Part shown: positions 6,524 to 14,959 of the stretch, piece after piece
Layout: every line of letters begins with the position of its first letter
How positions within the stretch are numbered: position 1 is the first letter of the stretch
From: a delta proteobacterium MLS_D
Lineage (GTDB): Bacteria > Desulfobacterota > Syntrophia > Syntrophales > UBA2210
Assembly (NCBI GenBank): GCA_002030015.1
Contig: LQBH01000046.1
Coordinates: 1 to 64,000 of the forward strand
Length of the DNA: 64,000 bases
Direction of reading: 5' to 3'
Notes under the pieces: model-generated
Seen by the model: only the letters and a program-made list of their open reading frames with translations
The model's database searches: none
Told to the model about the DNA's origin: nothing
Program-made: the position numbers and the translations under genes

Positions 6524-8134
6524 ATGTCATTACCCGACAGGAATAATCCGTACAATTTTAATGATTTTCTCGAGTGGCGACGGAATGTTGATTATTACCG
6601 CGATGATTTGTTTATTCAGAAAGCGCTTAAACACTACACCGGTGACGATTTTGAAAAAGTAGACGCCGCGGCGCGTTCCGTGTCTGAAAAGGCTTCTTTT
6701 CGCTGGCGGGATCTCTCGGAAAGAATGGCGCAGCCGGAGAAGCGTCCCTACATGATGCATTACGACGGTCATCACAATCGTATCGACCGTATCGTTCGTC
6801 CCGGAGAAACGGAAATACTGGAAAAAGAGGTTTTCTCCGAAGCCATTTTTTCGGAGAAGACTCCTCCCTGGGTCAAACTCATCAAGATGTTTCTTATTTA
6901 TCAGAACGGGGAAGCATGTATCGCCTGCCCGCTTACCTGCACAGAAGGCCTGGTGATGCTGCTGGAGAAATACGCGGATTCTGAAGATACAAAGAGCATC
7001 CTGCGTCATTGCAAAGAGGGGCGGGACGGCGATTACGCGATAGGGGCGCAGTATCTTTCCGAGATACAGGGCGGTTCCGACGTGCCGGCCAATCTGCTCG
7101 AAGCGGTGGAAGAAGACGGTGTCTGGAAACTCTACGGAACAAAATTTTTCTGTTCCGCGACTCATGCCGATTACGCGGTCATTACCGCGAAACCGGCCGG
7201 ATCGGAAAAGGTCGCCCTGTTCGTTTTTCCCTCGTGGCTTCCCGGCAACAAGGAAAAAGAGATAAGGAACAATTTTACGATCGACCGAATAAAGTGGAAG
7301 CTTGGCACGAGCGAGCTTACAACCGGCGAACTTACCTTTAACGGGACCGTCGCTTATCCTGTCGGCCCAATGGACAGGGGGGTTGCGAACGTCGTCGGCA
7401 TCGTTCTGACATATTCGCGTTTAACCGTGGGGCTCTCGGCCGCGGCTTTCATGACACGGGCTGTACGGGAAGCGAAAAAATACGCGGAGTTCAGAGACGC
7501 CTTCGGCGTCACGATAGAACAATTTCCCCTCGTGTATGAAAATATATCGAGGCTGGAAAAGGTCGCCGAAAGGACCACCGCATCGTCTTTAAAAGTGTAC
7601 CGGGAATTTCTCTCGCTGGGGGGCGGTCTGAACACCAGCCTGGCCGCCGATGAAGCCGACGACCTGAAAAAGAAACGATTCGATGTCAGGGAGCTGATCA
7701 TGCTCTATAAAATAACGACCGCCTGGGATTCCACGGAGCTTATACACGAGGCGATGTCTATTTTCGGGGGCCACGGAGTTATGGAAGATTTTTCCGCCCT
7801 GCCGCGCCTCTACCGTGATTCGGCCGTTAACGAACTGTGGGAAGGCCCGCGGAATGTGCTTCTCACGCAAATATATCGCGACATGAAAAGAGTCGCGGAC
7901 TGGTATGATCCCGCGGAATTCGTCAGGAATATTCTGGAGGGGGCGGACCGGGCGACGGTCGAAAAATTAGAAAAAGAAATCAAAGAATTGATGGGCTATT
8001 CGGATATGTACGACATGAATCCGCAAACAATCGACATATGGAGGCGATGGGATCTTCTCTGCGCGGAATTATTCCACACCTACCAGGATATCGCCCTTTA
8101 CGAAATTGAGCATTGTATTGAGGGACGTAGTTAA
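6524..8134 (+). CDS. Acyl-CoA dehydrogenase family protein (AidB-like), C-terminus set by a transposon end
   Basis: A 536-residue flavoprotein of the long acyl-CoA dehydrogenase branch. The N-terminal helical part is followed by the FAD/substrate section (YLSEIQGGSDVPANLLEA, about 177-194) and C-terminal helices with the FAD-binding segment SIFGGHGVMEDF. The segment DSAVNELWEGPRNVL carries a glutamate at the position used as base in AidB/isovaleryl-CoA relatives. The start follows GAGAAGGGGGG with good spacing. It would oxidise a branched or long acyl-CoA, but the substrate is unknown. The last codons (Glu-Gly-Arg-Ser-stop) are made by the terminal inverted repeat of the RAYT element that begins at 8122, so the original C-terminus has probably been replaced or trimmed. 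Confidence 0.88.
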   Translation: MSLPDRNNPYNFNDFLEWRRNVDYYRDDLFIQKALKHYTGDDFEKVDAAARSVSEKASFRWRDLSERMAQPEKRPYMMHYDGHHNRIDRIVRPGETEILEKEVFSEAIFSEKTPPWVKLIKMFLIYQNGEACIACPLTCTEGLVMLLEKYADSEDTKSILRHCKEGRDGDYAIGAQYLSEIQGGSDVPANLLEAVEEDGVWKLYGTKFFCSATHADYAVITAKPAGSEKVALFVFPSWLPGNKEKEIRNNFTIDRIKWKLGTSELTTGELTFNGTVAYPVGPMDRGVANVVGIVLTYSRLTVGLSAAAFMTRAVREAKKYAEFRDAFGVTIEQFPLVYENISRLEKVAERTTASSLKVYREFLSLGGGLNTSLAADEADDLKKKRFDVRELIMLYKITTAWDSTELIHEAMSIFGGHGVMEDFSALPRLYRDSAVNELWEGPRNVLLTQIYRDMKRVADWYDPAEFVRNILEGADRATVEKLEKEIKELMGYSDMYDMNPQTIDIWRRWDLLCAELFHTYQDIALYEIEHCIEGRS

Positions 8135-9226
8135 CTTATTAACTTATCGACGCTGATCCCTTTTTCTTCGAGGATTTTCGCTCCCCGCGCGACCGCCTTG
8201 CTTACCGCAACGGTGGAAATACCGAACCGTTTGGCCAGGGAGCGCATGGTTTCACCCAGTTCGCGAACAGCGACGTAACAGACCAGGCTTCGTGCCGTAA
8301 CGGTACGCTGGTAGCGGCCGGGCAGCCATATTTCTTGTTCTTTCACCCCAAGGAGCGATGCGACCCTGGCGGCGACGGCGTCCACCGTAATCCCGCGTGA
8401 CTTCAAGGCGTGACGGCGGTTGAATTCTTCATCGGCGGTTGCCAGCATTCGTTCAACGAAGTCGCTGTCGCCCAGCATGCGCTGATCGCCGGCGGTTCGA
8501 CGCCCCGCCTCCCGCAGCATTCGTACCGGCGTCCATTCCCCGTGATTGCGGACAAGACCTCCGTCGGCCAGGTCGTCCCGCTGTTCCTGCTCAATACCCC
8601 GGGCGACAAAGTCCCGATAGCTTTTCCGCGCCGGACCCTGCTGCGTGCCGAAATAGGAGAGCACTTCCCCCGTGTTTTGCCACGATTCCGTGATGTTTCC
8701 CATGATAACGGCATGTCCCGAGAAAGGGTACCTCTCAAGATCGTTCATGTTTTCCACGAGACCGGCTCGAAGCGGGTTCAGGTGAATGTAGCGCACCAGC
8801 TCAAGAAAATAGGCATCTTCCTGGCAGATGATCGATTTATAGCGATTCTGAAACAGATGTCCCTGGCGATCATGGCGCAGGTTGAAACTGACGGCATGAC
8901 CCGTCATCAATCGCCTCATAACGCTGGAAAGGGGATCGGTGCCGGTGCGCAAAAGCAGGTGGAAATGGTTGGGCATCAACGCCCAGGCGTAGCAGGCTGT
9001 TTTTGTCTCTTCGAGCAGGATCCCCAGCCGATCAAGAAATAACCAATGGTCCTTCTCATCCCTGAAGATCGTTGTTCGATCAATGCCCCGGGCGATGACG
9101 TGGTGAAGGGCTCCCGGCGCGTCTATGCGGGCTTGTCGCGGCATTGAGCACCCCCTTGCAGGGGAGTGGACGTCCCCTGTTTTATTTTAATAATATACTA
9201 ATAAGTTAATAAGTTAACTACGTCCC
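8122..9226 (-). mobile_element. REP-associated tyrosine transposase (RAYT) element with perfect 26-bp terminal inverted repeats
   Basis: A 1105-bp element with a single transposase gene. The left end (8122-8147) and right end (9201-9226) are perfect inverted repeats over 26 bp, starting GGGACGTAGTTAAC. Each end contains GTAG followed by a hairpin (GTTAA-CTTA-TTAAC), the arrangement known from REP sequences recognised by TnpA_REP proteins. No target-site duplication is visible, as expected for HUH single-strand transposition. The ends equal those of the three MITE-like copies at 1867-2119, 3455-3619 and 5036-5183, making this the likely autonomous parent. It sits exactly between the 3' ends of the acyl-CoA dehydrogenase and gatB. 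Confidence 0.88.
8131..9144 (-). CDS. REP-associated tyrosine (Y1/HUH) transposase
   Basis: A 337-residue protein with the transposase IS200-like fold. The HUH pair is H60/H62 in MPNHFHLLL (58-65); the conserved tail helix AYFLELVRYIHLNPLRAG (111-128) contains the candidate nucleophilic tyrosines Y112 and Y119. Residues from about 240 to the end form an extra helical region with a helix-turn-helix (LAKRFGISTVAVSKAVARG), probably a second DNA-binding domain. RAYT proteins cut and join single-stranded REP hairpins preceded by GTAG. Its own last residues (DKLIS-stop) are encoded by the left terminal repeat. All motifs are intact, so it may be active. Confidence 0.92.
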   Translation of the reverse strand: MPRQARIDAPGALHHVIARGIDRTTIFRDEKDHWLFLDRLGILLEETKTACYAWALMPNHFHLLLRTGTDPLSSVMRRLMTGHAVSFNLRHDRQGHLFQNRYKSIICQEDAYFLELVRYIHLNPLRAGLVENMNDLERYPFSGHAVIMGNITESWQNTGEVLSYFGTQQGPARKSYRDFVARGIEQEQRDDLADGGLVRNHGEWTPVRMLREAGRRTAGDQRMLGDSDFVERMLATADEEFNRRHALKSRGITVDAVAARVASLLGVKEQEIWLPGRYQRTVTARSLVCYVAVRELGETMRSLAKRFGISTVAVSKAVARGAKILEEKGISVDKLIS

Positions 9227-10656
9227 TTAAGTTTGTTGTGGAGGATTTCCTTGATGAGTTGGGGGTTGCCGGTGCCTTGTGAGGCCTGCATGGCCTGGCC
9301 CATGAGGAAGCCGAAGGCTTTCTGGGTGCCGGAGCGGTAGTCGTCAACGGCGGCGGGATTGTCGGTTATGATTCGATCGACGAGGGTTTCGAGCGCCGCC
9401 GTGTCTGAGACCTGGCGGACGTTGAGGCGTTCCACGACGGCTTCGGGCGCCTCGTCGCTTTCAAAGAGAACGGGCAGGATTTCGCGGGCCGCCCTGGCGT
9501 TGATCTCGTTTTTTTCGAGAAGCAGCAGGAGTCCCGCGAGTCGTTCCGCGGACAGGGGGGACGCTTCCACGGTCAGGCCCTTGTTTTTCAGCAGCGGCAG
9601 GAGCTGGGCGGCGATCCAGTGACACGCCGTCCGGGGCGGAATGCCGCTTTTCGCCACGGTTTCGAAGTAGTCGGCCAGGTCGCGGTCGGCGCTCATGAGG
9701 GACGCCTCGTCCCGGGGCAGTTCATAGTGTTCGATAAATCGCTCCATCTTGCGGGCGGGCATTTCGGGAAGCCGTGAGCGGACGGTCTCGAGCCATTCGT
9801 TCGAGATGACGATGGGGGGAACGGCGGGATCGGGAACACAGGGGCCCTCGAATTTGCCGCGCATGGCCACGGTCATCTTTTTGTCGGGGTCCCAGAGGCG
9901 CGTGTGAAGTGTCACCTGTTCTCCCGTGCGCACCTGGTCGGCCTGCCGCCGTATTTCGTAATCGACGGCGTCGCCCACGTTCTGGATGGAGTTCATGTTT
10001 TTTACTTCCACCTTGGTGTTGAACCGATCGGAACCTTTCGGACGGATGGAGATGTTGGCGTCCACCCGCATGGTGCCCTGTTCCATGCTGCACTCGGAGC
10101 TGCCGGCGTACCGGACGCGCGCCCGCAGGGCCTTGATGTATTCCATGGCTTCGTGTGAACTTCTGATGTCGGGGCGGCTCACAATTTCGACCAGGGGCGT
10201 GCCGGCCCGGTTGAAATCGACGAGGCTGACGGGGGTCTTGCCTTCGCGTTCGTGAAGCAGCTTGGCGACGTCTTCTTCCATGTGGACCTGGATGATGCCG
10301 ATGTTGCGCGACGAGCCGTCTTCGGCGGTGATCCGGACACGTCCGTTTTTCGCCAGGGGCTTGTGGAACTGTGAAAGCTGGTACCCCTTGGGAAGGTCGG
10401 GATAGTAGTAGACTTTCTGGTCGAAGGCGATGATGGGGCTGATCTCGCAGTCCAGGGCCAGCGCGGCGAGGGTCGCCTTTTCCAGGGCTTCCGCGCTCAG
10501 CCGGGGCAGGGCGCCGGGCAGCCACAGGCAAACGGGGCAGGTGTTCCGGTTCGGTTCGTCGCCCGGCCGGTTTGGGCAGTCGCAGAACATTTTTGTTTTT
10601 GTGTTGAGTTGAACGTGTATTTCAAGGCCGATAACGGCTTCAAATTCATCGATCAT
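9214..10656 (-). CDS. gatB: Asp-tRNA(Asn)/Glu-tRNA(Gln) amidotransferase subunit B (lacks the HDYRYF motif)
   Basis: A 480-residue GatB: cradle domain (about 1-290), helical domain and YqeY-like tail domain (about 330-480). GatB activates mischarged Asp-tRNA(Asn) or Glu-tRNA(Gln) with ATP and receives ammonia from GatA. The GLEIHVQL start (H14), zinc cysteines C25, C27, C40 and C43, HMEEDVAKL (125-133) and DFNRAGTPLVEIVS are kept. The near-universal segment with HDYRYFPEPD is shortened to GKFEGPCVPDP (267-277), losing HDYRYF in frame. The start overlaps the GatA-like stop by ATGA, so the two are translationally coupled. The C-terminal Gly-Arg-Ser-stop is supplied by the RAYT element's terminal repeat. 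Its activity as an amidotransferase is therefore open. Confidence 0.93.
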   Translation of the reverse strand: MIDEFEAVIGLEIHVQLNTKTKMFCDCPNRPGDEPNRNTCPVCLWLPGALPRLSAEALEKATLAALALDCEISPIIAFDQKVYYYPDLPKGYQLSQFHKPLAKNGRVRITAEDGSSRNIGIIQVHMEEDVAKLLHEREGKTPVSLVDFNRAGTPLVEIVSRPDIRSSHEAMEYIKALRARVRYAGSSECSMEQGTMRVDANISIRPKGSDRFNTKVEVKNMNSIQNVGDAVDYEIRRQADQVRTGEQVTLHTRLWDPDKKMTVAMRGKFEGPCVPDPAVPPIVISNEWLETVRSRLPEMPARKMERFIEHYELPRDEASLMSADRDLADYFETVAKSGIPPRTACHWIAAQLLPLLKNKGLTVEASPLSAERLAGLLLLLEKNEINARAAREILPVLFESDEAPEAVVERLNVRQVSDTAALETLVDRIITDNPAAVDDYRSGTQKAFGFLMGQAMQASQGTGNPQLIKEILHNKLKGRS

Positions 10657-11843
10657 GAAGCGGTTCCTCCGTGGTGTCGGTTCAGCCGGACGGCGAGATC
10701 AAGCAAGCGGGCATCGTCCAGGCGTCGTCCCAGAACCTGGACCGGCGCGGAGCCGGGAAGAGAAAGATGAACGGCGGGCAAACCCGCCAGGTTGGCCGGC
10801 AGGGTGAATCGGAAGAGGTTGTAAAGGTCGCCCGTGGTTGTTGTTTCCACTGAAGGCGCGGCGCCTCCCCTGGTCGTGGGCAGCACCAGGAAATCGATGT
10901 CGTCGAAAAGCTTTTCCAGTGAGGCGACGAGCCGCGCCCGAAGGCGGCAGGCTTTTTCGAAGGCATCGTATTGTTCGAACTGGTAGAAGGCGCCCTGAAA
11001 GAGGAAGCTTTTCAGCAGTGGGCCGAAAGCTTCGCCCCGGCTCGTGAGGTACATCTCGTTCCAGTCCCTGGTTCCCCTGGCCCGGTGGCCGTAGCGGACG
11101 CCGTCGAATTTTCCCGCGCTGGACGAGGCTTCGACGGAACCGATGATGTGGTGGACCGTGGGGAACAGGTCGAATTCGGCGATACTCGCGTCGCGAAGGA
11201 CGCAACCGGCGGGTTCCAGTTCCGACAGGGCTGTTCTGAAGGCCTCGCCGTCGCCGGGATCGAGGAGGGCGAGCGCTTCGGACACCACGCCCAGGCGATA
11301 TTCCGCGGTCTGGTCAGGGTTGCTGAAGTCGGGCATTGTTGGGGACAGCGTGAAATCCTGTTCGTCGTCGCCACAGGCGGCGGCCGCGGCGTTTCTGATA
11401 TCCGCGGGGTCTTTTGCCATGAATCCCAGGCATTCCATTGAGGGAATGAGGCCGATGAGACCGAACCGTGAGATGACGCCGAAGCTGGGCTTGTAGCCCG
11501 TGAGTCCGACCCGGGCGGCTCCGATCCGGGCTTCGCCCATGTGGTCCATCAGCAGGGCGATGTCGGCTTCTCTTGCCGCGACGGCCGGTCCCGCGCCGTC
11601 ACGGTCGATGCCGAGACCAAGTTCGTTCATGCTGGTAGTGCCCGCCAGCGTCGCGCCCGCCGCTTCGAGGCGTCTGACCACCGTGGCGTCTTCCAGGGCG
11701 ATGAATCCCTCAAGCGCCCGGGTACCCGCTTCCGTGGGCCAGTCACGAACCGATACGGAGGGGTGCAGGGCGATGTTCTTTCCCTCGAGGGGGCCGTCAC
11801 CGGCCGACCGTGTGCCCCTGTGGATGATATGACTCTGTTTCAT
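10653..11843 (-). CDS. GatA-like amidase homologue lacking the catalytic Lys-Ser-Ser triad
   Basis: A 396-residue amidase-signature homologue, about 90 shorter than normal GatA (about 485). Family landmarks are clear: EDATVVRRLEAAGATLAGTT (51-70), GYKPSFGVISRFGLI (116-130) and LPANLAGLPAVHLSLPG near the end. The catalytic residues are gone. The IKDN lysine region reads ALHPSV (His at 27), the GGSSGGS loop with the cis-serine is deleted (residues 78-86 bridge the gap), and the nucleophile segment DTGGSIRQPAA reads DHMGEARIGAA (100-110, Glu at the serine). The frame is open, GC-rich, coupled to gatB by ATGA, and has a good ribosome-binding site (AAGGA), so it looks maintained rather than decayed. 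Probably a non-catalytic GatA partner; ammonia supply unknown. Confidence 0.85.
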   Translation of the reverse strand: MKQSHIIHRGTRSAGDGPLEGKNIALHPSVSVRDWPTEAGTRALEGFIALEDATVVRRLEAAGATLAGTTSMNELGLGIDRDGAGPAVAAREADIALLMDHMGEARIGAARVGLTGYKPSFGVISRFGLIGLIPSMECLGFMAKDPADIRNAAAAACGDDEQDFTLSPTMPDFSNPDQTAEYRLGVVSEALALLDPGDGEAFRTALSELEPAGCVLRDASIAEFDLFPTVHHIIGSVEASSSAGKFDGVRYGHRARGTRDWNEMYLTSRGEAFGPLLKSFLFQGAFYQFEQYDAFEKACRLRARLVASLEKLFDDIDFLVLPTTRGGAAPSVETTTTGDLYNLFRFTLPANLAGLPAVHLSLPGSAPVQVLGRRLDDARLLDLAVRLNRHHGGTAS

Positions 11844-11858: not shown

Positions 11859-12167
11859 CTGGATTCCGGCCTTCGCCGGAATGACGCAATAAAAAGAAAC
11901 TGGATTCCGGCCTCCGCCGGAATGACGAAAAAAAAGTTTTTATGTCGTCACCCCGGCGCAGGCCGGGGTCCAGATGGTTAGATTATTGTATGGGCCTCCG
12001 CCGGAATGACGAAATAAAAAGAAACTGGATTCCGGCCTTCGCCGGAATGACGAAATATTCAAGGTTCCCTGCCGTTACCCCGGCGCGTGTTTTTAAGGAC
12101 ACACGGCCTGGATCGGGTCTCAACACTCCGTCGTCACCCCGGCGCAGGCCGGGGTCCAGATGGTGTT
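11859..12167. repeat. Cluster of hairpin repeats (TTCCGGC...GCCGGAA type), left of the GIY-YIG gene
   Basis: Three full units of CTGGATTCCGGCCTTCGCCG+GAATGACG (11859-11886, 11900-11927, 12025-12052), one partial (11992-12010), and two copies of a second GC hairpin unit (CACCCCGGCGCAGGCCGGGG) at about 11946-11975 and 12131-12163. Each is a self-complementary hairpin. The block 11900-11992 is repeated without change at 12568-12660. The cluster starts within the ribosome-binding region of the GatA-like gene. It fills the 382-bp gap between that gene and the GIY-YIG gene; no other feature is visible. Confidence 0.88.
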
Positions 12168-12225
12168 ATTATTTCAGGATTCACCCAAATGGTGAATGAC
12201 AGGTTGTAAATATTTTTTCAACCCG

Positions 12226-12516
12226 TCAAATAATACGCTGGTATAAATCCTCCCAGTCAGGATTAGCGCTTTCGATCAACTTCAACTTCCAGGCGCGTTT
12301 CCATTCTTTTATTTGCTTTTCCCTTACAATCGCCGATTCCATTGTTTCATGAATTTCGAACCAAACCAGGAGATGGACGCTGTATCGTTTTGTAAAGCCC
12401 TCTGCCAGCCCATTCTTGTGTTCACAGACCCTTTTCGCGAGGTTCGAGGTGACGCCTGTGTACAACGTGCCGTTTCGTTTGCTTGCTAACATGTAAACGG
12501 CGGGCAGTCTCTCCAT
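12226..12516 (-). CDS. GIY-YIG superfamily endonuclease-like protein
   Basis: A 96-residue single-domain protein with the GIY-YIG pattern (VYMLASKRNGTLYTGVT, residues 7-23), the helix arginine (NLAKRVCEHKNG) and the metal-binding glutamate region (ESAIVREKQIKEWKR). It belongs to the small family often annotated only as GIY-YIG nuclease (UvrC N-terminal-like). It is embedded in two clusters of hairpin repeats, an arrangement I recall as frequent for this family. A link between the nuclease and the spread of the hairpins is a reasonable but untested idea. It separates the GatA-like gene from aspS on the same strand. Confidence 0.9.
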   Translation of the reverse strand: MERLPAVYMLASKRNGTLYTGVTSNLAKRVCEHKNGLAEGFTKRYSVHLLVWFEIHETMESAIVREKQIKEWKRAWKLKLIESANPDWEDLYQRII

Positions 12517-12531
12517 AGGTCATGTGCCCCT

Positions 12532-12826
12532 GCTGGATTCCGGCCTTCGCCGGAATGACGGAATAAACTGGATTCCGGCCTCCGCCGGAATGACGAAAAA
12601 AAAGTTTTTATGTCGTCACCCCGGCGCAGGCCGGGGTCCAGATGGTTAGATTATTGTATGTCGGCGAAGTCCTTCTTGCTGGATTCCGGCCTCCGCCGGA
12701 ATGACACAATAAAAAGAAACTGGATTCCGGCTTTCGCCGGAATGACGAAAGAAACTGGATTCCGGCCTTCGCCGGAATGACGGCCTCGTTTCTCACCCTC
12801 TATCCCGGTCTTCGCCGGAATGACGC
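12532..12826. repeat. Cluster of hairpin repeats, right of the GIY-YIG gene
   Basis: At least five hairpin units of the TGGATTCCGGC...GCCGGAATGAC type (12533-12560, 12568-12595, 12679-12706, 12720-12747 and 12754-12781), a partial one near 12805-12825, and one CCCCGGCGCAGGCCGGGG unit at about 12618-12637. Block 12568-12660 equals 11900-11992 exactly (93 bp). The phrase CGAAGTCCTTCTTGCTGGAT at 12665 repeats the leader of the GatA-like gene at 11845. Spacing is irregular, and no gene is visible. Confidence 0.88.
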
Positions 12827-12841
12827 AATAAACCTGGTCAA

Positions 12842-14959
12842 TTATTCCAGGATCGTGACGGTTTTGAAGAAGTCTCCTTTCACGGAGGGGGCGTTTTTGA
12901 AGATTTCTTTGGATTCCGCCGATGGATGGCGGCGTGGCTCGGCGGTTTGTCTCAGCCGGTTGCCCCCTTCGGCCAGTGAGAAGAGCGGTTCTTCCGATCC
13001 CGCGGCCGCCCGGATTGTTTCGGCCATGTTCCGGGCCTCGTCCAGGGCCTGTTCGATCGCGGATCGTTCGTCGTCGTCGAGCCCGATCCGGGATACCCAG
13101 GACAGGGAATGCACGAGGTCGGCCTTTTCACTGCTTCCCGGCAGGGTCGCGTCGCTCTGTCCCGTCAGCAGCGCCAGTTCGGCGAGTTGTTCGCGCGTGA
13201 CCGGCGAGGGTGCCTCGGTGAGGGGACAGTAGGCGCTCCGGTTTTTGGGGAAGGCGATGACGTCCCGTATGGAGGGTGTTCCCAGTATCATGGCGACCAC
13301 GCGGTCCATACCCAGGGCGAGGCCGCCGTGGGGAGGAAGCCCGTAATCAAAAGCACGCAGGAAGAAGCCGAATTTTTCCCGCACCTCGTCGGCCGTCAAT
13401 CCCAGTGCCTGGAATATTTTGTTCTGCACATCCCGGTTGTTGATGCGGATGCTGCCGCCGCCCAGCTCCTCGCCGTTTACGACCAGGTCGTAGGCGCGGG
13501 ACTTGAGGGACAGCAGTTCTTCTCTGTTCGCGGGGTCGAAGTCGGTGCGATCCGGAGCCGTGAAGGGATGGTGATTGGAGGTGACGCCTTCATCGGTCGC
13601 CTGGAAGAGGGGGAATTCGGTGATCCACACGGGGCTGAAGGCATCGCGGGGAATCAGGTCCAGGCGCTCGGCCAGGTGCAGCCGCAACCTGCCCAGCACG
13701 GAGGCGACCACTTCGGGTTCGGGGTCGGCGATCATGACGATGACGTCGCCGTCGCGGGCGTCGAAACGTCGCATGATTTCTTCCCGCTCTTTATCGCTGA
13801 AAAACTGAACAATGTTGGAGTCGAGTTTTCCGTCGGTGACGCGCATCCAGGTCATTCCCTTGCCGCCCAGGGCGGGGACGATCTGTTTGGCGTATTCATT
13901 CTGCAGGACGTTCTTGCTCAGTTCGTCCGACTTGCCGGTGACGGTGAGTCCTTTGATGACGCCGCCCCGCCCGAGCACCTGTTTGAAGATGCTGTAGGAG
14001 GTGTCGCGGAAGATGGAGGTGGCGTCCACGAAGCGCAGTCCGAAGCGCAAATCGGGCCGATCCGTGCCGGCTGTTTCCATGGCTTCGTGCCAGGTCAGGC
14101 GGGGAAAGGGCCGGGACAGCTCAATGCCGCCTTCCCGAAACATGCGTGCCGTCAGTTCTTCCAGCAGCCCGTAAATGAACTCTTCGTCGATGAATGAGGA
14201 TTCCATGTCGAGCTGAGTGAACTCGGGCTGCCGGTTGGGCCGCAGGTCTTCGTCGCGGAAACAGCGGGCGAACTGGTAGTAGCGTTCGAAGCCGGCCGCC
14301 ATGAGAAGCTGTTTGAACAGTTGTGGCGACTGGGGCAGGGCGTAGAAATGTCCCGGGTGAATGCGGCTGGGTACCAGGTAGTCGCGGGCCCCCTCGGGCG
14401 TGCTCTTCGTGAGAACGGGTGTTTCGATTTCGATAAAGCCCTGTTCGTCGAGGCAGCGCCTGACGCCGGAGAAGATGCGATGCCGCTTGATGAAGTGGTC
14501 CTGCATGGAGGGGCGGCGCAAATCAAGGTAGCGGTACTGAAGGCGCAGGTCTTCGCTGATTGATTCTATTCCGGAAACGGTTCCTTCCAGGACCATCGCC
14601 TTTTCAGAAACGGGGAAGGGTAGTGTCTCTGATGTACTGAGAACTGAAAGGCTTGTGGCGGTCACCTCGATGGTGCCCGTTTCGATATTGGGATTTTCCG
14701 TTCCTTCCTGCCGCCGGATCACGGTTCCTTCCAGGGCGACGCAGAACTCGCTACGCAGGTGGGAAGCCTCGCCGCAGAGTTCCGCCGAGGAATGTTCGGG
14801 GCTGAAAACCACCTGTACAAGGCCGCTGCGGTCGCGCAGGTGAATAAAGAGGACGTCGCCGTGGTCGCGGAGGGCGTCTACCCATCCCGCCAGATGCACG
14901 GCGCGGCCGATGTCGTTTTCGGAAAGAGCGCCGCAGGGTGTCCGACCGCTCGATTGCAT
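12842..14959 (-). CDS. aspS: Aspartyl-tRNA synthetase fused to GatC (predicted non-discriminating)
   Basis: A 705-residue protein. Residues 1-590 are a bacterial-type class II AspRS: OB-fold anticodon domain, QSPQLFKQLLM, motif 2 (FRDEDLRPNRQPEFTQLDME), GGGSIRI and motif 3 (LALGMDRVVAMILG). Residues about 612-705 resemble GatC, ending FKNAPSVKGDFFKTVTILE like the GatC tail. H33 (RDHGD) and G86 (QEGTENP) match the residues that mark non-discriminating AspRS in Pseudomonas (H31, G82), so it should also make Asp-tRNA(Asn). AspRS-GatC fusions are known in deltaproteobacteria. It would pass Asp-tRNA(Asn) to the GatA-like/GatB pair encoded downstream; a repeat cluster now splits that run. Confidence 0.93.
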   Translation of the reverse strand: MQSSGRTPCGALSENDIGRAVHLAGWVDALRDHGDVLFIHLRDRSGLVQVVFSPEHSSAELCGEASHLRSEFCVALEGTVIRRQEGTENPNIETGTIEVTATSLSVLSTSETLPFPVSEKAMVLEGTVSGIESISEDLRLQYRYLDLRRPSMQDHFIKRHRIFSGVRRCLDEQGFIEIETPVLTKSTPEGARDYLVPSRIHPGHFYALPQSPQLFKQLLMAAGFERYYQFARCFRDEDLRPNRQPEFTQLDMESSFIDEEFIYGLLEELTARMFREGGIELSRPFPRLTWHEAMETAGTDRPDLRFGLRFVDATSIFRDTSYSIFKQVLGRGGVIKGLTVTGKSDELSKNVLQNEYAKQIVPALGGKGMTWMRVTDGKLDSNIVQFFSDKEREEIMRRFDARDGDVIVMIADPEPEVVASVLGRLRLHLAERLDLIPRDAFSPVWITEFPLFQATDEGVTSNHHPFTAPDRTDFDPANREELLSLKSRAYDLVVNGEELGGGSIRINNRDVQNKIFQALGLTADEVREKFGFFLRAFDYGLPPHGGLALGMDRVVAMILGTPSIRDVIAFPKNRSAYCPLTEAPSPVTREQLAELALLTGQSDATLPGSSEKADLVHSLSWVSRIGLDDDERSAIEQALDEARNMAETIRAAAGSEEPLFSLAEGGNRLRQTAEPRRHPSAESKEIFKNAPSVKGDFFKTVTILE

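Follow-up and report, generated by a model that had tools for sequence, protein, structure and literature searches.

A GatA homologue lacking the amidase triad, encoded in an operon with GatB and an AspRS-GatC fusion

The 64,000 nt stretch of DNA analysed here (the window), from contig LQBH01000046.1 of the delta proteobacterium MLS_D, carries an operon for an AspRS-GatC fusion, GatA2 and GatB2, all on the minus strand. Alignments and structure prediction confirm GatA2 as an intact GatA homologue without the amidase triad. The operon, here termed the type II module, may well encode a dedicated, covalently tethered Asn-transamidosome, in which GatA serves as a scaffold and the ammonia does not come from the module's own GatA; we hold the chances of this reading to be evenly balanced. 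The structure and ancestry of the module come directly from the comparisons below, and its chemistry is inferred from them. The three genes are:

12842..14959, minus strand: AspRS-GatC fusion, type II, 705 aa, with AspRS at about residues 1-600 and a GatC-like part at about 610-705 (NCBIfam, Pfam, C-terminal motif)
10653..11843, minus strand: gatA2, amidase-dead GatA homologue, 396 aa (ORF, family profiles, alignments, AF2 model)
9214..10656, minus strand: gatB2, kinase/transamidase subunit, 480 aa, catalytic residues kept, with family-specific remodelling (profiles, alignments)

The gatA2 frame has an ATG start and no internal stops, and shares 4 nt with gatB2 in an ATGA overlap. An earlier note, made from the window sequence, had described this frame as intact, clearly GatA-related and coupled to gatB, and all three points hold. 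The protein matches Pfam Amidase at 1.8e-52 and scores 213.6 bits with the NCBIfam gatA profile (TIGR00132), below the equivalog cut-off of 481.1; this score and the structural matches together identify it as a homologue with the GatA fold. The top structural matches of its AF2 model (pLDDT 93.7) are all GatA proteins, the closest being 3kfu_H (Z 46.3, rmsd 2.1, 390 residues aligned), and 3h0l_A gives a Z of 45.8.

GatA2 was compared by alignment with solved GatAs and with 18 canonical GatAs of its own order, relative to which it also lacks about 60 N-terminal residues. Sites are given by S. aureus residue numbers (Lys79, Ser178, Arg358 and so forth), assigned through the alignment and the S. 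aureus structure. In the structure of yeast GatFAB, the triad and the glutamine-binding residues are named K52, S130, S154, R334 and D418 (PMC4027206). Three sites of the old triad were located in the window by the alignments:

11763..11765, minus strand: His27 codon, aligning with the catalytic Lys79 of GatA
11595..11600, minus strand: approximate site of the cis-Ser loop deletion, which removes about 21 residues and falls between residues 82 and 84
11532..11534, minus strand: Glu104 codon, aligning with the nucleophile Ser178; Glu in 80/80 orthologues

The deleted segment is the one that holds the cis-Ser (GGSSGGS). Elsewhere in the window protein, the glutamine-binding Arg358 and Asp425 are replaced by Phe280 and Phe344, and Tyr309 by His231. 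None of the 80 GatA2 orthologues keeps any member of the triad (Lys, cis-Ser, Ser): the Lys79 column is Gln in 67, Glu in seven, His in four, Trp in one and Arg in one, never Lys, and the cis-Ser loop is deleted in every orthologue. The glutamine-binding site has gone as well, with Tyr (64), Phe (14) or Leu (2) in the Arg358 column and mostly Phe in that of Asp425. These results bear out the alignment of the IKDN lysine with His27, the deletion of the GGSSGGS loop and the change of the nucleophile to Glu104, all proposed in the earlier note, as well as the altered glutamine-binding Arg and Asp, of which it had been less certain. Since the loss of the triad is invariant over 80 orthologues, it is more than chance. 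The note had also considered that a functional triad might lie elsewhere in the protein; this was rejected, as no such triad was found in the fold by structure prediction and full-length alignment to GatA structures.

Two residues, Glu104 and His231, are the same in all 80 orthologues and are not used at those positions by canonical GatA, and Asp100 and Arg106 are near-invariant. GatA2 might then be a new hydrolase, with Glu104, His231 and Arg106 forming a different active site for another substrate. This is very unlikely, as bulky residues replace the glutamine-binding Arg and Asp, the invariant Glu104 may be structural (for example, in a salt bridge to Arg106), and we know of no precedent for such a hydrolase in the amidase-signature fold.

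GatA2 is under purifying selection. Its dN/dS among close pairs is 0.10-0.30, and the frame is open and full-length in 79/80 orthologues, so that a pseudogene, disabled in close relatives, is rejected by both dN/dS and conservation; the earlier note had named this outcome as one that would overturn its reading. GatA2 does evolve faster than GatB2 and AspRS2, the AspRS of the fusion (dN/dS about 0.05-0.25), as might a decaying duplicate heading for loss, but the fetched loci have open frames under purifying selection and one conserved dead state spans orders and families. Decay is already largely refuted by the present data, and we consider it extremely unlikely.

The upstream gene, which had been taken for an AspRS, is not a plain AspRS but a fusion to GatC. 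It scores 1195 bits with NCBIfam PRK12820, 'bifunctional aspartyl-tRNA synthetase / amidotransferase subunit C' (cut-off 1379), and 686.9 bits with aspS_bact. The AspRS part has the class II motifs and GAD domain of a bacterial AspRS (Pfam tRNA-synt_2 386.5 bits, GAD 61.5 bits), and the FRDEDLR, GGGSxRI and ALGxDR motifs are invariant in it. The GatC part of the window fusion falls just below the Pfam GatC cut-off (PF02686, 21.3 bits vs 23) and gives no match to TIGR00135. It nevertheless ends in the GatC C-terminal belt motif NAPxxxGxFxK, present in the window protein as KNAPSVKGDFFK and conserved across the fusion, the form shared with GatC being NAPxVKGxFFK. The predicted structure of the fusion has a mean pLDDT of 72.3, with low confidence for the GatC part and for some of AspRS, and no conclusion is based on it.

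GatB2 scores 588 bits against the GatB equivalog cut-off of 338. Residues E12, H14, K81, K90, E127, E128, E157, D199, N201 and S203 are kept in 69/69 sequences; they include the ATP/Mg residues expected of a GatB transamidase/kinase, and the Zn-site cysteines are kept in all 69 too. The ATP/Mg roles of the GatB Glu, His, Asn and Ser residues have been described (PMC4027206). The known tunnel residues are also unchanged. Other positions that are constant in the sequences of GatB1, the canonical GatB, that were compared show invariant changes in GatB2, including R78 to Q, N80 to V, EEDAGK to EEDVAK and the loss of DYRYF, and these four are shared by neither type I (see below) nor canonical GatB. 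Position 161, near one catalytic Glu, is Arg in the window protein and Glu in 62/69.

The host genome contains, apart from the module, a full canonical gatCAB operon with an intact triad (L001), a second, stand-alone AspRS (L005), GluRS and GlnRS (L009, L010) and a third amidase (L002); AsnRS was not found in it. The search for a second, normal gatA that the earlier note had proposed was therefore successful, and the paradox it saw in the dead GatA is weaker than stated, since the normal gatCAB, the other AspRS and the GlnRS leave no essential translation gap. Asn-tRNA can be made through the canonical pathway in this host, and the type II module is an addition to it. The same redundancy is seen in other genomes: among 20 GatA2 carriers, canonical GatA exceeds its cut-off in 19 (the exception, G001, is 84% complete), stand-alone AspRS is present in 19, GlnRS in 16 and AsnRS in three. 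Asparagine synthetase B homologues vary among the carriers. In G022, rated 100% complete, the fusion is the only AspRS. This points to AspRS2 being able to serve tRNA(Asp) as well, provided that no other AspRS gene was lost in an assembly gap.

An active-looking GatCAB alongside the module in nearly all carriers would suit a regulatory or quality-control complex, in which a catalytically idle amidotransferase, by binding Asp-tRNA(Asn) or tethering AspRS2, would hold or protect it until the active GatCAB acts. Much of the conservation common to GatA2 and canonical GatA (GatA1) falls outside the old active site, which also fits. However, an idle scaffold would have no need of the ATP/Mg residues that GatB2 keeps without exception, and we regard such a role as distinctly unlikely.

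The RDLG loop of AspRS is thought typical of discriminating enzymes. Among 40 genomes, all 20 with AsnRS have His at this position (RDHG) and five of the 20 without AsnRS have Leu; the His/Leu residue was rejected as a mark of non-discriminating AspRS, as it does not predict specificity in this phylum. Four genomes in which AsnRS was not detected (G075, G187, G207 and G227) have a single listed AspRS, with RDLG (L196, L199, L200 and L198, respectively).

Five relatives (G122, G173, G215, G235 and G274; loci L168, L169, L170, L171 and L174) have a related operon, termed type I, consisting of an AspRS-GatC fusion followed by a GatA with an intact triad and then by GatB, and two of them (G235 and G274) hold both modules. 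Type I GatA keeps Lys79, Ser154, Ser178, Arg358 and Asp425, and the GatB and GatC motifs are canonical; the GatC part of the one tested (G173) passes TIGR00135 with 84 bits (cut-off 47.1). Type I would be a covalently tethered transamidosome that, as far as we found, no paper describes, though NCBI names the fusion. An AspRS tree places every fusion on the same side of a branch with support 100/100 and divides the fusions into types I and II, each with 100% support, the rooting of the fusions against stand-alone AspRS being an assumption. GatB2 likewise forms one group. The simplest history would be a single AspRS-GatC fusion, followed by a single loss of the glutaminase site along with the changes in GatB and GatC, and in the sample the site was lost once, in the type II common ancestor, and never regained. 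At one type II locus (L173 2082-3379, in G274, which also has type I), gatB2 consists of two overlapping frames, from an assembly frameshift or a broken gene.

GatA2 was found in 11/60 relatives and in 11/247 well-covered genomes of the phylum (own genome counted; G047 as a fragment), and two well-covered congeners (G002 and G004) do not have it. The type II module is patchy, and therefore accessory. A scan of genome contigs with a single GatA2 sequence gave no match; a scan with the GatA2 alignment gave 373 stretches, which may include canonical GatAs and so is not a count of GatA2. From the GTDB species genomes scanned, 80 loci were fetched, including Desulfocicer vacuolatum, Desulforhabdus, Desulfobacula, Desulfotignum, Syntrophus and Smithella. 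The carriers are sulfate-reducing and syntrophic bacteria, among which the operon is widely shared. Some locus records are titled as other phyla and may be mislabelled MAGs. The 80 loci contain 80 gatA2, 79 gatB2 and 77 fusion genes, with gaps where a locus ends close by.

If the type II module is a tethered Asn-transamidosome, then AspRS-GatC would attach Asp to tRNA(Asn), and possibly to tRNA(Asp) as well, and pass on the Asp-tRNA. GatB2 would phosphorylate the Asp side chain using ATP, and ammonia from a source other than GatA2, in the simplest case free NH3/NH4+ of the medium, would complete Asn-tRNA(Asn). GatA2 would be retained as a scaffold needed by GatB and GatC, leaving the canonical GatCAB for glutamine-dependent work, and the module would be a tRNA-bound counterpart of ammonia-only amidotransferases. 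This reading is favoured because the catalytic and glutamine-binding residues are invariantly lost in 80 orthologues while the GatA fold and the GatA-specific stretch EASS...D...YG.R are kept; that stretch is present in both GatA1 and GatA2 and absent from the third amidase of the genome. It is favoured further by the low dN/dS, the recurrence of the trio and the complete retention of GatB2 catalytic residues, and by the grouping of all fusions in one clade with an active-looking type I sister. The fusion and the conserved operon suggest a physical complex of AspRS, GatCAB and tRNA, and by its ancestry AspRS2 may act on tRNA(Asn). The nitrogen donor would probably be free ammonia. The earlier note's proposal of a retained scaffold with ammonia from elsewhere is partly supported overall, and is the best-supported reading given the purifying selection, the GatA fold and the GatB2 residues kept. 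Counted against it are the patchiness of the module and the presence of AsnRS in some carriers. The invariant changes in GatB2 lie beside conserved catalytic positions, so its chemistry or access may have changed.

Such changes could also mean that the type II module makes no Asn-tRNA, GatB2 activating Asp-tRNA and another nucleophile attacking the beta-phosphoryl group, or with the Asp-tRNA feeding a non-translation process. The module is redundant with canonical gatCAB, the stand-alone AspRS1, GlnRS and, in three genomes, AsnRS; its distribution is that of an accessory system, and GatA2, GatB2 and the GatC part share a concerted, invariant remodelling that type I lacks. Nevertheless, there is no conserved biosynthetic neighbour to supply or use another product, and GatB2 retains its known ATP/Mg and tunnel residues, making this unlikely.

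Clustering of the fetched loci showed no other gene family recurring beside the trio. As this clustering could merge amidases with GatA2, linked intact amidases were checked separately and were seen in one lineage only, where an intact amidase-signature gene lies right behind gatB2 on the same strand (L050 8740-10185, L056 8728-10182 and L182 7255-8709). It could be the ammonia source in that lineage; a linked source for the module in general was rejected, the extra amidases being confined to these loci. The arrangement favours a variant in which the same complex receives ammonia from another enzyme that docks on GatB2 or GatC, such as GatA1 or some further amidase or amidotransferase, as does the near-universal presence of canonical GatA in carriers. 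At the remaining loci, however, no amidase or amidotransferase gene recurs by the trio, and GatA1 is also present in relatives without the module; we think this variant, too, is improbable. At one locus (L051 3182-3257), a tRNA-Asn(GTT) gene precedes the fusion by about 590 bases on the same strand, and a linked tRNA as the substrate of the module was rejected as too rare (1/49 loci scanned).

Among known systems, GatCAB (S. aureus 2df4, A. aeolicus 3h0l) has the same GatA fold, GatB ATP/Mg and Zn-site residues, GatC tail motif and A-B gene order, but GatA2 differs in lacking the triad and glutamine-binding residues and in being shortened (the N-terminal residues and the cis-Ser loop), and the GatC part, joined to AspRS, has diverged so far that it misses the GatC family cut-off. 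The Asn-transamidosome (T. thermophilus 3kfu, P. aeruginosa 4wj3) likewise unites AspRS with GatCAB, an association predicted here from the genes, and the GatA of 3kfu is the closest structural match to GatA2; in the type II module, AspRS and GatC are one polypeptide and GatA is dead. Type I has a sister fusion (also PRK12820) and the same operon order, but it has intact GatA catalytic residues and canonical GatB/GatC motifs. Deinococcus radiodurans and Thermus thermophilus have a second, non-discriminating AspRS serving the tRNA-dependent Asn route (PMC4206432). These are similar cases of an extra AspRS beside a complete translation set, but theirs is an archaeal-type enzyme partnered by an ordinary GatCAB, whereas the one described here is bacterial-type, fused to GatC and paired with a dead GatA. 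Carbamoyl-phosphate synthetase I is ammonia-dependent, with a working synthetase and a glutaminase half that is missing or inactive. Ammonia-using NAD synthetases also work without a glutaminase (PMC3376133). The parallel with these enzymes is a proposal, and none of them acts on an aminoacyl-tRNA. No published description of an AspRS-GatC fusion or an inactive GatA was found in a search of open-licence papers; the fusion is known to annotation, under the NCBI name PRK12820.

In textbooks, aminoacyl-tRNA amidotransferases figure as glutamine enzymes with a tunnel through which ammonia moves. Anaerobes often live with abundant ammonium. If the tethered Asn-transamidosome reading is true, the use of ammonia would save these anaerobes the ATP spent making glutamine. 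A dead type II beside an active-looking type I, both in some genomes, amounts to a natural experiment that asks what the glutaminase is for, and makes testable whether tRNA-dependent amidation can run on free ammonia in the cell and which roles GatA has besides ammonia. It is also a warning that a gene with a gatA annotation can encode a catalytically dead protein.

In most relatives, the genes of the trio are adjacent or overlap, but in the window the fusion and gatA2 are about 1 kb apart, with palindromic repeats and a GIY-YIG ORF in between. Eight repeats (TGGATTCCGGCxTxCGCCGGAATGAC; chance expectation 0), all on the plus strand, occupy 11860-12781, and the GIY-YIG ORF (12226-12516, minus strand) lies among them. 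Directly behind gatB2, at 8131-9144, is an IS200-like Y1 transposase with a DnaA-type helix-turn-helix tail, which is possibly the RAYT partner of these repeats.
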